Assembly: GCF_009662475.1 (NCBI RefSeq)
Contig: NZ_CP045571.1
Coordinates: forward strand, 2,602,501 to 2,666,500
Direction of reading: 5' to 3'
From: Acidithiobacillus thiooxidans ATCC 19377
Lineage (GTDB): Bacteria > Pseudomonadota > Gammaproteobacteria > Acidithiobacillales > Acidithiobacillaceae
Length of the DNA stretch: 64,000 nucleotides
Shown here: positions 15,662 through 20,774 of the stretch, piece after piece
How positions within the stretch are numbered: the stretch's first letter is position 1
Layout: each line of letters opens with the position of its first letter
Made by a program: the position numbers and the translations under genes
Notes under the pieces: generated by a model
What the model saw: the letters and a program-made list of their open reading frames with translations, nothing else
The model's database searches: none
Told to the model about the DNA's origin: nothing

Positions 15662-16969
15662 TTAGACCAGAGGCAACCACCAGGCCAGCATCAACAGAGT
15701 CAAAAACAATACGGGTGGAGTGATGAGCAGACCGGTTTTCATATATTGCCCCCATCCCACGGTGACGCCCTTACGGCTGAGCACATGCAACCAGAGCAAG
15801 GTGGCCAGACTGCCGATGGGCGTAAACTTCGGCCCCAGATCGCAACCGATGATGTTGGCATAAATCATGATTTCACGGAGCATGGGATCCGCCGTGGCAG
15901 GCAGATGATGAATAGCCAGCGCACCCACCAGCACAGCGGGCATATTGTTCATGATCGAAGACAGCAGCGCGGCCATGAAGCCGGTGCCCAGCGCCGCCAC
16001 TACCGGACCATGGCTGGCAAAATCATGGAGTGCTATGGTCACAAAACGGATCAGTCCGGCATTGCGTAAACCATAAACCACCAGATACATGCCCAGACTG
16101 AACACCACAATGGCCCAGGGAGCGCCGCGCAACACCTTGCGCACCGGAATCTGTGCATCGCGACCACCCTGCAACCAGCGACCAGCCAAAGCCAACATGA
16201 TCAAGGCCCCGGTTCCGGTGACTACCGACACGGGTACATTCCAGTGCGCCGTCACAAAATAGGCTACCAACAATAAGATAAGCACTGGAAAACTGGCACG
16301 AAACACCAGATGATCTTTAATGACCGTCGCCGGATCCGGCAAATGCGCCGTAGGATAACTGCCTGGCAAACTGCGTCGGAAATACAGCCAGAGAACCGCC
16401 AAAGTGGAAAGCAATGCCACAATATCAACGGGCACCATGACGGTCGCATATTGTGAAAAGGAAATATTAAAATAGTTGGCGCTGACAATGTTCACCAGAT
16501 TGGAAATCATCAACGGCAAACTGGTGGTATCGGCGACAAAGCCAGTAGCAATAATAAAAGCAAAAGTCGCTGTGGGTGAAAAATCCAGACGGAGCAAAAT
16601 GGCCATCACAATGGGCGTCAACAAAAGAGCGGCGCCATCATTGGCAAAAACCGCAGCAATACAAGCACCCAACAAGACAATCAGGACAAAGAGCAAGCGA
16701 CCGCGTCCCCCGCCCCAACGCGCTACATGCAGGGCTGCCCAGTGGAAAAATCCGGCCTCGTCCAGAATCAGGGAAATGATAATCAGGGCTACAAAGGTGA
16801 AGGTAGCATCCCAGACGATGTGCCAGACAATAGGAATATCGCTCCAGGTAATAACGCCCGTTGCCAAGGCAACGACCGCCCCGCCCATGGCACTCCAGCC
16901 TATGCTCAGGCCTTTGGGCTGCCAGATGACCAAAATCAGGGTAACGAGAAAAATGACTACGGCCAGCAT
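15662..16969 (-). CDS. arsB: Arsenite efflux permease ArsB
   Basis: ArsB exports arsenite (and antimonite) from the cytoplasm as a proton antiporter. The sequence closely follows classical Ars[15 protein letters not shown] near the start, then [37 protein letters not shown], and the [13 protein letters not shown] motif, across about 12 helices. The reading frame is open further upstream (to 17074), but ATG at 16969 is preferred. It gives 435 residues (E. coli ArsB has 429), aligns with the known N-terminus, has GGAG nine bases upstream and lies downstream of the predicted divergent promoter. It is transcribed divergently from arsR. Confidence 0.94.
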
Positions 16970-17003
16970 GGGGCTATACTCCAGACGATTGGAAAGTGAC
17001 ATC

Positions 17004-17036
17004 AGTCTTGACGAGGCGTTGATACTTGTCAATACT
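17004..17036. promoter_or_regulatory. Face-to-face ars promoters inside an inverted repeat (putative ArsR operator)
   Basis: AGTCTTGAC (17004-17012) and GTCAATACT (17028-17036) are inverted repeats matching at 8 of 9 positions, 15 bp apart. On the plus strand TTGACG (17008-17013), 17 bp and AATACT (17031-17036) form a promoter for arsR. On the minus strand a perfect TTGACA (17032-17027), 17 bp and AAGACT (17009-17004) form one for arsB. Each arm therefore supplies the -35 of one promoter and the -10 of the other. ArsR binding here is an inference. Confidence 0.6.
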
Positions 17037-17061
17037 ACAAGAAATGTTCGCGGGTAGAATG

Positions 17062-17427
17062 ATGGAAATTTCAAAAGAAACGGAAAATGTTGTTCAGCAA
17101 CTGGAGTCGCTAGCCTCTCCCGTGCGCCTGGAAATTTTTCGCTTGCTCGTTGAACAGGAGCCCACAGGACTGGTTTCCGGTGATATTGCCGAACATCTGG
17201 ACCAACCCCACAATGGTATCTCCTTTCATCTGAAAAGCCTTCAACATGCCGGTCTGGTTACGGTGCAACGCGAGGGTCGTTATCAACGCTATCGGGCTGA
17301 CATGAGCGTAGTTCGGGCATTAGTCGCCTATCTGACAGAAAATTGCTGTCGTGGTACCCGGAATTGTTCTTTACCCCAACCTACAGATCTGCCACTTGAC
17401 GAGGAAGCACTGAATGAAAACTCCTGA
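17062..17427 (+). CDS. arsR: Arsenite-responsive repressor ArsR (C-terminal Cys-triad type)
   Basis: ArsR/SmtB-family winged-helix repressor that leaves DNA when trivalent arsenic binds. The HTH lies around [20 protein letters not shown]. The E. coli-type C-x-C site in that helix is absent. Instead Cys95, Cys96 and Cys102 ([10 protein letters not shown]) match the As(III) site described for A. ferrooxidans ArsR. That numbering holds exactly if the start is the ATG at 17062. Starts further upstream (17026, 17044, 17059) are possible, but 17026 would precede the predicted transcription start. It overlaps arsC by 14 bp and is divergent from arsB. Confidence 0.93.
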
Positions 17428-17905
17428 AATCCTGTTTCTTTGCACCGGAAATTCCTGTCGTTCCATTCTCGCCGAAGTCACCATGAACGGACTGGCCGAT
17501 TCACGTCTGCACGCGACCAGTGCCGGAAGCCATCCTGCGGGTTATGTTCATCCGCGTTCGATACAGCTTCTCCAGCAGGAGGGGTTTGCCACGGAAGGCC
17601 TGAGCAGCAAATCCTGGGATGAACTGAAAACCACGCCGGACATTGTCATTACCGTTTGTGCCAGTGCTGCTGGCGAGGCCTGCCCCGCCTACCTCGGACC
17701 CGCCATACGCGCGCATTGGGGGGTGGAAGATCCGGCCAAGGCCACCGGCAGCGAAGCAGAAATTGATGCGGCTTTTCAAACAGCATACCGTATTCTCCGG
17801 CACCGCATTGAAGCCTTGCTGAAATTGCCTGTTGCTGAATGGCTCGAAAAAGATCCCGCTCAGTTAAGGCAGGAACTGAATCGCATTGGCAGCATGGAAC
17901 CCTGA
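17414..17905 (+). CDS. arsC: Arsenate reductase, low-molecular-weight phosphatase family
   Basis: ArsC reduces arsenate to arsenite, which ArsB then exports. The P-loop is C10-TGNS-C-R16, as in low-molecular-weight tyrosine phosphatases. Cys82 and Cys90 lie where thioredoxin-linked ArsC of the pI258 type carries its C82/C89 redox pair, with one extra residue between them here. An Asp in WGVEDP (about 106) fits the general acid. 163 residues, longer than pI258 ArsC because of a C-terminal helical tail. Thioredoxin coupling is inferred. The start lies within the end of arsR; the VOC gene follows after 4 bp. Confidence 0.92.
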   Translation: MKTPEILFLCTGNSCRSILAEVTMNGLADSRLHATSAGSHPAGYVHPRSIQLLQQEGFATEGLSSKSWDELKTTPDIVITVCASAAGEACPAYLGPAIRAHWGVEDPAKATGSEAEIDAAFQTAYRILRHRIEALLKLPVAEWLEKDPAQLRQELNRIGSMEP

Positions 17906-17909
17906 GCGT

Positions 17910-18398
17910 ATGGATACAACCAATCAGAACCCGGTGATGATTCCGGATGCCCAGGAATTTCATCTCAGTTTCCGGGTCAGCAACCTAGCCGAAAGCACTC
18001 GTTTTTACGAGCACTTTCTGGGGGTCGCGCCCAAACAGAGCACGGCACGCTTCAGCACTTTTATCGTCCCGCATTTGTGCCTGAATCTCGTTATTCTGGT
18101 GAATGACCGGGGAGAAGCGCTGGACACTTACAGCCTTTACCATGTGGGGCTGGGTGTGAAAGACCGGGCGGCAGTCATCGAAAGCTATCATCGCGCCATG
18201 GCGGCAGGTGCCGAAATTGTTAAACCGCCCCGCACCACCTGGCGCGGTACGCCTCTACATGAACTTTGGCTGCGGGATCCTACGGGCTACAACATTGAAG
18301 TGTACGCCCGCCTGACTGATGCCGAACTGGCAGAAATGCCCGCTGATCAGGAGTCGTTTTTCCTGGTAGCGGGTACTGAACCGAAAGAAAACGCCTGA
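17910..18398 (+). CDS. VOC-family protein in the ars operon (CadI/ArsI-like)
   Basis: A 162-residue vicinal-oxygen-chelate protein. The start FHLSFRVSNLAESTRFYEHF and metal-site features (H in FHLSF, H in YHVGLGV, E in GYNIEVY) fit a two-module glyoxalase-fold enzyme. Position after arsC and the general sequence recall CadI and the ArsI C-As lyases. However, the vicinal cysteine pair that ArsI uses to bind organoarsenicals is not visible; only one Cys (PHLCLN) is present. An arsenic-related role is therefore contextual, and organoarsenical demethylation is not supported. ATG at 17910 follows the arsC stop by 4 bp. Confidence 0.8.
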   Translation: MDTTNQNPVMIPDAQEFHLSFRVSNLAESTRFYEHFLGVAPKQSTARFSTFIVPHLCLNLVILVNDRGEALDTYSLYHVGLGVKDRAAVIESYHRAMAAGAEIVKPPRTTWRGTPLHELWLRDPTGYNIEVYARLTDAELAEMPADQESFFLVAGTEPKENA

Positions 18399-18410
18399 TT
18401 TATCATGAAG

Positions 18411-18608
18411 CTAAAAACGGCAGTTGCCGTGGGTGCTTTGCAGCGACTTTTGTTTTGAGCCGTCGTTGTTCTTGGCGAAATCCAGCGCCCGTCAGGAGAT
18501 CTGTTTGAGCCCGCAGGGCGAGTTCTCTCCTGACAGCAGGATGAGCCCTAGAACAACAGGCGAGGAACAACGGAGCAAAAAACACCCACGGCAACTGCCG
18601 TTTTTTGG
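18411..18608. repeat. Structured palindromic intergenic repeat, probable bidirectional terminator
   Basis: Two perfectly complementary 23-bp arms (18413-18435 and about 18583-18605; core GGCAGTTGCCGTGGGTG) enclose about 150 bp. Inside lie a perfect 9-bp hairpin, GTCAGGAGA (about 18490-18498) with TCTCCTGAC (about 18525-18533), containing a smaller GCCCGCAGGGC hairpin, and a looser pair CGTTGTTC / GAACAACG. The right arm ends in TTTTTT and the left arm is preceded by AAAAA, so a transcript from either side would meet a stem plus U-run. The element sits between convergent arsRC-VOC and uvrB. Short frames beginning MPWV and ending HPRQLPF on both strands are a consequence of the palindrome. Confidence 0.7.
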
Positions 18609-18632
18609 ATGAATGATCTAACCGGTCTGGTA

Positions 18633-20660
18633 TTAGTCTTCTAACAAAGACACTTCCAGATCGGTACCCAACAGACGGGTTTCCAGTTTTTTTATTTCGT
18701 CCCGCAATGCTGCCGCCTGCTCAAATTCCAGGTTGCGCGCATGGCGGAACATTTCCTCTTCCAGCTCCTTGATTTTTTTGGCAACGGCTTTGGGGTCATT
18801 GAGCAGACGATAAGCGCTGTTTTTCTCTGCCACCTTCGCTGCAGGTTGCGCGTTACGCCGATACACGCCCTCAATAATATCCGCCACGGGTTTCACTATA
18901 CCCTTGGGGGTAATATGGTGGATCGCATTAAAATGCACCTGCTTTTCGCGGCGGCGATCTGTCTCTGCCATGGCCGCCGTCATGGATTTGGTGATCTGAT
19001 CCGCATACAAAATCGCTCGACCGTGCAAATTCCGGGCTGCGCGGCCAATGGTCTGAATCAACGAGCGCTCCGAGCGCAGAAAGCCCTCCTTGTCTGCATC
19101 CAGAATCGCCACTAACGCCACTTCGGGCATATCCAGCCCCTCACGCAGCAGGTTAATGCCAATCAGCACATCAAAAACGCCTGCGCGTAAATCCCGAATA
19201 ATTTCCACCCGTTCAACTGTTTCAATATCTGAATGCAAGTAGCGGCATTTGATACCCAGATCATGCAGATAATCGGTCAAGTCTTCTGCCATACGCTTGG
19301 TCAGGGTGGTAACCAGAATGCGCCAGCCACTGCGGATGACTACATGGATTTCACTAATCAAGTCATCGACCTGGCCTTTTGCCGGGCGTACCTCCACGAG
19401 CGGGTCCACTAATCCGGTAGGCCGCACCACCTGCTCGACAATCTGCCCGGAGTGCTCCATTTCATAGGGTCCGGGAGTTGCCGAAATCATGATGGTCTGG
19501 GGCATGAGTGCTTCAAACTCAGGAAACATCAGGGGTCTATTATCCAGCGCAGAAGGCAGGCGAAAGCCATATTCCACCAGAGTTTCCTTGCGGGAGCGAT
19601 CCCCCTTGTACACCCCCCCGAACTGGGGCACGGTGACGTGAGATTCATCAATAAACAGTAAAGCATTGGGTGGCAGGTAATCCATCAAGGTAGGCGGTGC
19701 CTGCCCGGCGCTTCTTCCCGATAAATAACGGGAATAGTTTTCGATACCCGAGCAATATCCCAACTCTGCCATCATCTCCAAATCAAAACGGGTGCGTTGT
19801 TCCAAACGTTGGGCTTCTACCAGTTTGTTGGCCTTGCGGAGATCTTCAAGACGCTGCCGTAATTCATCCTTGATACTGTCCAGCGCTTCCAGAATTTTCT
19901 CTCTGGGGGTTACATAATGGCTTTTGGGATAAATGGTATAGCGCGGCAAACGCACAATGGTTTTCCCCGTGAGCGGATCAAAAAGCGAAACCCGTTCAAT
20001 TTCCTCCCCGAATAATTCCACCCGCACGGCTTCGTCTTCACTTTCTGCGGGCCAGATATCAATCACATCACCGTTAACCCGAAAGTTACCGCGTTTCAGT
20101 TCCAATTGGTTACGGGTGTACTGCATTTCTGCCAGCCGCTGAAGAATCGCACGCTGATCCATGACGTCGGATTCGCGCAAATGCAAAATCATGCCATGAT
20201 ATGAAGCGGGATCACCCAGTCCGTATATGGCGGAGACCGTCGCCACAATAATGACGTCAGGCCTTTCGAGCAGAGCTTTCGTCGCGGAAAGGCGCATCTG
20301 TTCAATATGGTCATTAATGGAAGCATCTTTTTCAATAAAAGTATCCGAAGACGGGACATAGGCCTCCGGCTGATAATAATCGTAATAACTGACAAAATAC
20401 TCGACGGCGTTATGCGGAAAAAAACTGCGCATTTCTGCATAGAGCTGCGCCGCCAGCGTCTTGTTGGGGGCCATGATAATGGCTGGGCGCTGGGTCGTGG
20501 CAATGACATTGGCAACTGTAAAGGTCTTCCCGGAACCGGTTACCCCCAGAAGCGTCTGGAAAAATTCTCCGTCCGTCAGCCCCTGGACCAGCTGACGAAT
20601 CGCCTCCGGCTGATCGCCCTGGGGCGAAAAGCGGCTTTCCAGAATAAGGCTTTTGTCCAT
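18633..20660 (-). CDS. uvrB: Excinuclease ABC subunit B
   Basis: UvrB is the damage-verifying helicase-like subunit that hands lesions to UvrC. Walker [15 protein letters not shown] lies near residue 40. The beta-hairpin that inserts into DNA ([20 protein letters not shown]) follows. Later come the DEAD-like DESHVTVPQ, the helicase motif VI IGRAARN and a C-terminal UVR motif ([12 protein letters not shown]) that contacts UvrC. The ATG at 20660 is preferred over the GTG at 20672 because GGAG sits six bases before it and would overlap the GTG frame; the result is 675 residues. Confidence 0.97.
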
Positions 20661-20774
20661 TGGCCACTCCACGAGTTACGTTTGGTTTACTTCAATGCAG
20701 ATCTACGCCCTTCCCTGATCACGATGCCTACTTTACAATATATCGGCTTGTACAAACATCCGTTGTTCGTTCAT

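Follow-up and report, generated by a model that had tools for sequence, protein, structure and literature searches.

A probable miniature inverted-repeat element with IS1380-like ends, inserted at gene ends in Acidithiobacillus thiooxidans

A nested palindrome between a glyoxalase gene and uvrB

The sequence analysed here, referred to as the window, is a stretch of 64,000 nucleotides from the genome of Acidithiobacillus thiooxidans ATCC 19377. Positions 15662-18398 of the window are an arsenic-resistance cluster, in which an ArsB-type pump on the minus strand diverges from a plus-strand group of an arsR-like regulator, a low-molecular-weight phosphatase of the arsenate-reductase type and a glyoxalase-fold gene. 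The glyoxalase-fold gene (17886-18398, plus strand) is the last of its group and converges on uvrB (18633-20672, minus strand), as the initial annotation of this DNA had described. Between the two genes lies an element of 199 bp (18410-18608), whose plus orientation is defined by its core motif GTTTGAGC..GCGAGTT. Copies in the same genome, and absence from the orthologous site of two relatives (G003 and G010), define it as an inserted unit. The 5-bp sequence ATGAA stands directly to its left (18405-18409) and to its right (18609-18613), and these duplications set the bounds; the previously proposed end at 18608 was correct, and the start lies one base further left than the 18411 given.

The ends of the element are CCTAAAAACGGCAG inverted repeats with 5-bp duplications of the form NTNAN. 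The left terminal repeat, or outer arm (18410-18434, plus strand), reads GCTAAAAACGGCAGTTGCCGTGGGT and resembles the end CCTAAAAACAGCAGTT of an IS1380-like insertion sequence; the right one (18582-18608, minus strand) ends in CTGCCGTTTTTTGG and was delimited by alignment and by pairing of the arms. The core with its nested helices (18435-18581, plus strand) is conserved also in copies whose arms differ. At its centre is a hairpin, CTGTTTGAGC-CCGCAG-GGCGAGTT (18501-18524, plus strand), that is common to palindromic repeats of other proteobacteria.

An inverted-repeat scan recovered all three helices that had been read from the sequence by eye. The outer arms extend over 27 nt (18413-18439 and 18579-18605) at 96% complementarity, with the outer 23 pairs perfect; a second stem of 9 bp is perfect (18491-18499 and 18526-18534), and a looser third pair is 73% complementary (18465-18486 and 18536-18557). 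The predicted RNA fold of 18390-18630 had an energy of -112.8 kcal/mol; shuffled sequences averaged -73.4 (sd 4.65, z -8.5), and none of 200 was as stable, so that the long nested palindrome is confirmed by sequence, scan and a fold energy far from chance. The A- and T-runs at the ends of the outer arms were also seen in the sequence. The protein reading MPWV...HPRQLPF mentioned in the initial annotation is literally there in open frames of both strands: 62 aa on the plus strand (MPWV...HPRQLPFFG) and 63 aa on the minus strand (MPWV...HPRQLPFLAS), both with TTG starts. These palindrome-derived frames are the only ones of at least 40 aa, and the element has no protein-coding capacity.

Terminator-like hairpins, each a GC stem followed by a T-run, were found within both arms by a consensus scan only: for plus-strand transcription at 18588-18608, formed by a small palindrome within the right arm, and for minus-strand transcription at 18410-18430 within the left arm. 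The 1.4-kb stretch around the element held four terminator-like sites, one of them outside the element, compared with 2.1 ± 1.7 in shuffles, and the scan alone is therefore weak.

Copies, empty sites and target sites

A DNA search with re-mapping located the element in 40 places of its own 3.4-Mb genome; two of these are fragments, and the other 38 align over 139 bases or more. Among 40 genomes searched, counting its own, 11 matched at E ≤ 0.001. Two of these (G006 and G007) gave only single weak matches of 38 bases and were dropped from the list of carriers. Besides the own genome, this left as carriers six further members of the genus (G001, G003, G004, G008, G010 and G016) and two of a neighbouring genus placed in the same family by the taxonomy used (G017 and G020). 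The matches listed from a pattern scan of named genomes included Acidithiobacillus sulfurivorans, concretivorus, sp. HP-2, marinus, montserratensis and sulfuriphilus, a ferrivorans MAG and one proteobacterial MAG. Stretches of G003, G004, G008, G010, G016, G017 and G020 have 100% identity with named records of this kind. The matches listed also included records from other groups, mostly Prevotella-like, and these latter records were taken as chance matches of a short pattern. A blastn search of phage and plasmid collections (E ≤ 1e-5) found nothing that matched the element.

This is a dispersed repeat with a family in relatives, and not the single-copy sequence lacking compensatory change that the initial annotation had named as a refutation, since it is multi-copy and its helices covary. 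An ordinary, non-mobile bidirectional terminator unique to the glyoxalase/uvrB pair would fit the position between convergent genes, the A- and T-runs at the arm ends and the terminator-like matches on both strands. However, the 40 genomic places refute that explanation, which also meets empty orthologous sites, and we give it practically no credence.

At the window locus, the flanks on both sides align gaplessly in G003 and G010, which lack the entire element, arms included. The junction in G003 reads CTGATTGATTAAGAATGATC, compared with CTGATTTATCATGAA-element-ATGAATGATC here, and the target is present as a single copy at the empty sites of the two relatives (AAGAA and AGGAA). The element is carried at this locus by G004, and both of its ends are found in G001 on two contigs. 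A second empty site was seen at another locus (L008), where the copy is absent from G010. The same L008 locus in G004 (L396) carries the element reversed with the right junction unchanged, which suggests either inversion between the arms or a second insertion.

Empty sites also bear on a very improbable alternative, in which only the core is mobile and lands in the loops of pre-existing host terminator hairpins. Such mobility would account for outer arms that differ between copies, in some of which the arms vary almost completely while the core stays alike, and at one locus (L029) three relatives hold arm-like sequence without a core. On the other hand, the empty sites at the window and L008 loci lack the arms as well as the core, and the target duplications sit outside the arms. 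The L029 observation can also be put down to loss of the core together with the right arm, since no right flank was found at that locus either. For the window copy, invasion of a host terminator by the core is ruled out by empty sites without arms.

The loci analysed contained 185 raw copies; after removal of identical copies and of those too near a locus end, 140 remained, which include orthologs of one insertion across several species, so that counts over them are not independent. Both ends were located automatically in 69 of the 140 copies and were not recognised in 71. A perfect 5-bp duplication was present in 14 of the 69 and absent from 55, compared with 2% when partners were shuffled (about 1.4 expected); this count of perfect duplications is too low, as the end finder was off by one base in some copies, including the window copy. 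The mean duplication match was 2.83, compared with 2.14 in shuffled pairs (highest among 2000 shuffles, 2.51). All 14 perfect duplications were of the form NTNAN, and all 26 copies with at least four duplication matches had T at position 2 and A at position 4. The earlier suggestion of a mobile palindromic element thus finds good support in the 40 places of its own genome, the empty sites and the target duplications. It has the features of a miniature inverted-repeat transposable element (MITE), being short, multi-copy and non-coding, with terminal inverted repeats, a target duplication and empty sites.

The middle of the target, TNA, is a TAA or TGA stop codon on one strand. With genes around the copies called by a simple longest-ORF rule, 64 of the 140 copies were flanked by convergent genes and 15 by divergent ones, the two tandem arrangements accounted for 31 and 25, and five copies had a neighbour missing. 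The 136 element sides with a recognised end included 101 with an inward-pointing gene of at least 100 codons; 84 of these genes were kept, and 17 with a longer frame on the opposite strand were dropped. Among the 84 gene ends, the stop codon fell exactly on target positions 2-4 (offset -1, one base before the repeat) in 11. The adjacent offsets had six (zero bases before the repeat) and two (two bases before), and every other offset had five or fewer. There is thus an excess of insertions at stop codons or directly after them, to which target choice and removal of harmful insertions may both contribute.

A GC stretch followed by a T-rich tail, scored by a simple rule, was present in at least one direction in 22 of 38 copies from the own genome and in 38 of 102 from relatives. 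Over all copies this amounted to 60 of 140, compared with 13 of 134 control stretches, leaving 80 of 140 with a tail in neither direction. Tails in both directions were found in 34 of 140 copies and in one of 134 control stretches. A tail in one or both directions was seen in 46 of the 69 copies with both ends recognised and in 14 of the 71 others, a comparison in which end recognition and tail are not independent, since the end pattern itself contains an A-run. A role of the element as a terminator is plausible: an intact terminal repeat would form a small GC hairpin followed by T, and a fresh copy would act as a bidirectional intrinsic terminator.

Several irregular forms were observed among the loci. 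Around position 463 of one locus (L100, G000:C1:2050662) is a solo 27-bp palindrome, CCTAAAAACGGCAGTTGCCGTTTTAGG, which is the two end repeats joined without a core and flanked by CTGAC and CTGAA; it has the look of a remnant left by a deletion and may still act as a terminator. At L025 and L099 (G000:C1:3150283-3151347), two parts of an element in opposite-end register are separated by about 0.9 kb of other sequence and are perhaps one copy split by insertion. Two further copies (L083 and L146) have a 12-base duplication-like insertion ahead of GAACAACAGG in the core.

A putative IS1380-like helper

Insertion sequences of the IS1380 family, with which the ISEcp1 group belongs, have ends beginning CCT and make 5-bp AT-rich duplications. 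The element resembles this family, whose DDE transposase is PF13701, in its CCT-type ends and 5-bp AT-rich duplications. It differs in carrying no transposase, and the nearest transposase falls below the NCBIfam cut-off.

The own genome contains one PF13701 relic above cut-off, with an interrupted transposase. A search with the MITE end matched CCTAAAAACAGCAG directly upstream of this relic; the end-pattern search is unspecific at two mismatches (260 matches, 202 in the control), so that only the position of the match is telling. A second PF13701 match in the own genome (L098) was rejected as a helper, being an IS701-type transposase. A relative of the transposase was found in 10 of 17 genomes of the genus. 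When 15 insertion-sequence loci were scanned for ends, nine showed both, the left such as CCTAAATTCGGCAGTTACC and the right such as CCTAAAAAAAGCAGTTA. Eight of these nine copies, seven in G011 and one in G008, had perfect NTNAN duplications; the exception was the own relic (ATCAA and TTTAT), with the left end CCTAAAAACAGCAGTT. The MITE end and the insertion-sequence ends are similar, not identical: CCTAAAAACGGCAGTTGCC compared with CCTAAAAACAGCAGTTTCC in the own relic and with CCTAAATTCGGCAGTTACC and CCTAAAAAAAGCAGTTA in G011.

An intact transposase of 513 aa in G011 scored 146.7 bits against the NCBIfam IS1380 model (NF033539; cut-off 180), the best of the models listed, and the transposase scored 77.7 bits against Pfam PF13701 (cut-off 34.7). 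As the NCBIfam score is under the cut-off, 'IS1380-like' is the safe name. G011 has the most intact copies of the insertion sequence, yet carries no MITE. The MITE-bearing G008 has an intact transposase frame of 512 aa between both ends, and the MITE-rich G004 has a frame of 467 aa with a right end, the left end not being found.

The similar ends of this insertion sequence and its perfect NTNAN duplications make it most reasonable to interpret the element as its MITE. With good though not complete confidence, we propose that the copies form a new family of MITEs, with an IS1380-like element as the likely helper and a target resembling a stop codon. That it is an inserted mobile element is more secure than this joint statement. 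The sequences show an insertion of DNA bounded by terminal inverted repeats and by 5-bp NTNAN duplications; an IS1380-like transposase, whose own element has similar ends and the same target form, may move it in trans. As the TNA core of the target is a stop codon on one strand or the other, and insertions within genes are presumably selected out, copies would pile up directly at gene ends, often between converging genes.

Bacterial MITEs described to date include NEMIS, RUP, ERIC, YPAL, Bcr1, Nezha and EFAR (PMC3733652) and Correia (PMC4133298). By the descriptions drawn on from these two articles, the element is like them in being short and non-coding, with terminal inverted repeats, a frequent position beside coding sequences and foldable transcripts. 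It is unlike those named there in its IS1380-like ends, its NTNAN target containing a stop triplet and a hairpin common to other proteobacteria. It shares a dispersed, intergenic distribution with the REP/BIME palindromes, which are associated with RAYT transposases (PMC3733652), and differs from these sequences of 20-40 bp in its length of 199 bp, DDE-type ends and 5-bp duplications. The Tn3-derived miniature elements termed TIMEs are, in the account drawn on, similarly non-autonomous, named by the ends of their parent and foldable as transcripts, with duplications of 5-6 bp; unlike the element, they have Tn3-type ends of 38 bp and are usually single copy (PMC4133298). IS1380 has been reported in three strains and as peculiar to A. 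caldus, in an article whose sections drawn on here do not use the term MITE (PMC10214660). In the open-licence PMC literature we found no description of a miniature inverted-repeat element of Acidithiobacillus, and none of the articles there on IS1380 and MITEs concerned Acidithiobacillus by title.

Helix maintenance and the central hairpin

The covariance check proposed in the initial annotation gave a strong signal. Across 46 diverse copies, 36 of 65 consensus pairs had changed on both sides, and 96.0% of cells were paired compared with 84.7% after shuffling (none of 500 shuffles as high). The outer arm helix was the most variable, with double changes in 21 of 22 pairs.

Covariation alone does not prove RNA; under selection on a one-strand RNA, G.U departures should be tolerated and A.C departures should not. 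Counted with no energy model, G.U and A.C departures were 76 and 71 in the arms (129 copies) and 47 and 38 in a broader family of 32 elements. In the core helices they were 151 and 157 (137 copies; no energy model and no multiple alignment), a count that crosses internal loops and is thus diluted, 1126 of the 7138 core cells being other mismatches. A small control of 20 distinct tRNAs from the same loci gave 6 G.U and 1 A.C in the acceptor stem. For pairs predicted from both strands, the counts were 10 and 14 in the core and 23 and 23 in the arms. Strand-specific tolerance of G.U was not seen in the covarying helices. A plus-strand consensus count for the core (91 G.U and 16 A.C) had looked biased towards one-strand RNA selection; the bias vanished with the both-strand pairs and in the energy-model-free count.

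These counts bear on the proposal that the element is a structured RNA, either a trans-acting small RNA or a 3'-UTR element, that was spread by transposition and is kept by RNA selection. Double-sided changes in 36 of 65 pairs, pairing above all shuffles and conservation of the central hairpin and its internal loop in distant genomes speak for it, and the pairs predicted on the plus strand only are rich in G.U cells. However, the model behind that choice favours G.U, and strand-only pairs of the same kind occur on the minus strand as well. Departures of the G.U and A.C kinds are nearly balanced in core, arms and broader family, and the copies show no preferred orientation relative to the upstream gene (31 and 25 in tandem). 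Core loops diverge between ortholog pairs like partly coding flanks (6.9% and 6.3%), and there is no Rfam family match: no curated family of Rfam 15 matched the element, and a low-threshold Rfam scan gave two matches with E above 1, far below gathering scores. We consider this proposal improbable. The structured RNA suggested in the initial annotation is not borne out in its strict, one-strand form, as covariation is strong but departures show no clear strand preference and orientation is neutral.

Two further ideas were unsupported by the ortholog pairs. Strong purifying selection on the core loops did not agree with divergences of 6.9% in loops, 4.7% in pairs and 6.3% in flanks. Templated double changes in the arms, hinted at by one ortholog pair (L030/L241), did not agree with 18 single and 3 double changes in the arms. 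Single changes also dominated in the core (28 single and 1 double). These changes were counted in 12 of 16 ortholog pairs, four being dropped for an unsure alignment or different insertions. Arm divergence in the same 16 pairs was 14.3%, with an unsure arm alignment.

Near equality of G.U and A.C, together with orientation neutrality, favours maintenance at the DNA level or on two strands. Complementarity of the nested helices would be maintained by a process without clear strand distinction. This would most likely act on DNA, through a transposition hairpin or cruciform or through template switching in the palindrome, or else via both transcripts.

The resemblance to repeats of other proteobacteria noted earlier holds for the central hairpin, in matches both to a covariance model and to a pattern. 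The hairpin consists of CTGTYTGAGC, a short G/C stem-loop and GCGAGTT, which leave an asymmetric internal loop (CUGUYUGA/GAGUU) beneath a very small cap. With seven candidates scored per genome, a covariance model built from the core matched at least three of 398 genomes of the phylum (the own genome, G255 and G374); the best matches in G255 span the full model length, and those in G374 cover the central hairpin only. The pattern CTGTYTGAGC-N(3-14)-GCGAGTT was found in 21 of the 398 genomes, nine of them with two or more matches: 35 in the own genome, 14 in G318, nine in G255, seven in G421, six in G415, four each in G374, G396 and G049, and two in G243. A reversed control pattern gave single matches in six genomes. 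Single matches of the pattern at two loci without arm structure (L204 and L213) look like chance.

In the multi-copy genomes the hairpin sits within long, nearly complementary arms. In G318 and G415 these arms are largely uniform; in G421, G396, G049 and G255 they differ from one copy to another. Sequence like GCCGAGNAGCGCAG and GAGCAACGCAGG often borders the hairpin elements, as do further hairpins containing CTTTCTTTTGG-like sequence on the 3' side, and pairs in inverted orientation occur in several genomes. At loci L349-L378 (for example L377, L361 and L374) are multi-copy palindromes that share the central hairpin but have different flanks and additional hairpins on the 3' side. Three of these loci (L374-L376) are in the AT-rich genome G049, and their flanks contain ACCGCACTT, which we take to be a Pasteurellaceae uptake signal; the family may therefore reach Pasteurellaceae. 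No Rfam family matched the wider-family loci tested, and the 'skipping-rope' RNA, which we had considered as a candidate for the wider family, was rejected with no Rfam match in 19 loci.

These matches point to the central hairpin as a module spread over several proteobacterial families and absent from Rfam. A more tentative and rather doubtful idea is that the hairpin is a transferable module, which a common factor would recognise as a hairpin in DNA and which different transposons would have captured, in Acidithiobacillus an IS1380-like one.

A recurrent intergenic palindrome of a biomining genus is here explained as a probable transposon with a likely helper, and its target form would spare genes through insertion at stop codons. 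Comparison of G.U and A.C departures over many copies separates maintenance at the RNA level from that at the DNA level, which covariation alone leaves unsettled. If the idea of a transferable module is true, palindromic elements that otherwise differ would share a hairpin module across several Gammaproteobacteria in the broad sense, and copy-variable arms around a near-invariant, strand-neutral hairpin would reflect an undescribed hairpin-based process of mobility or maintenance.
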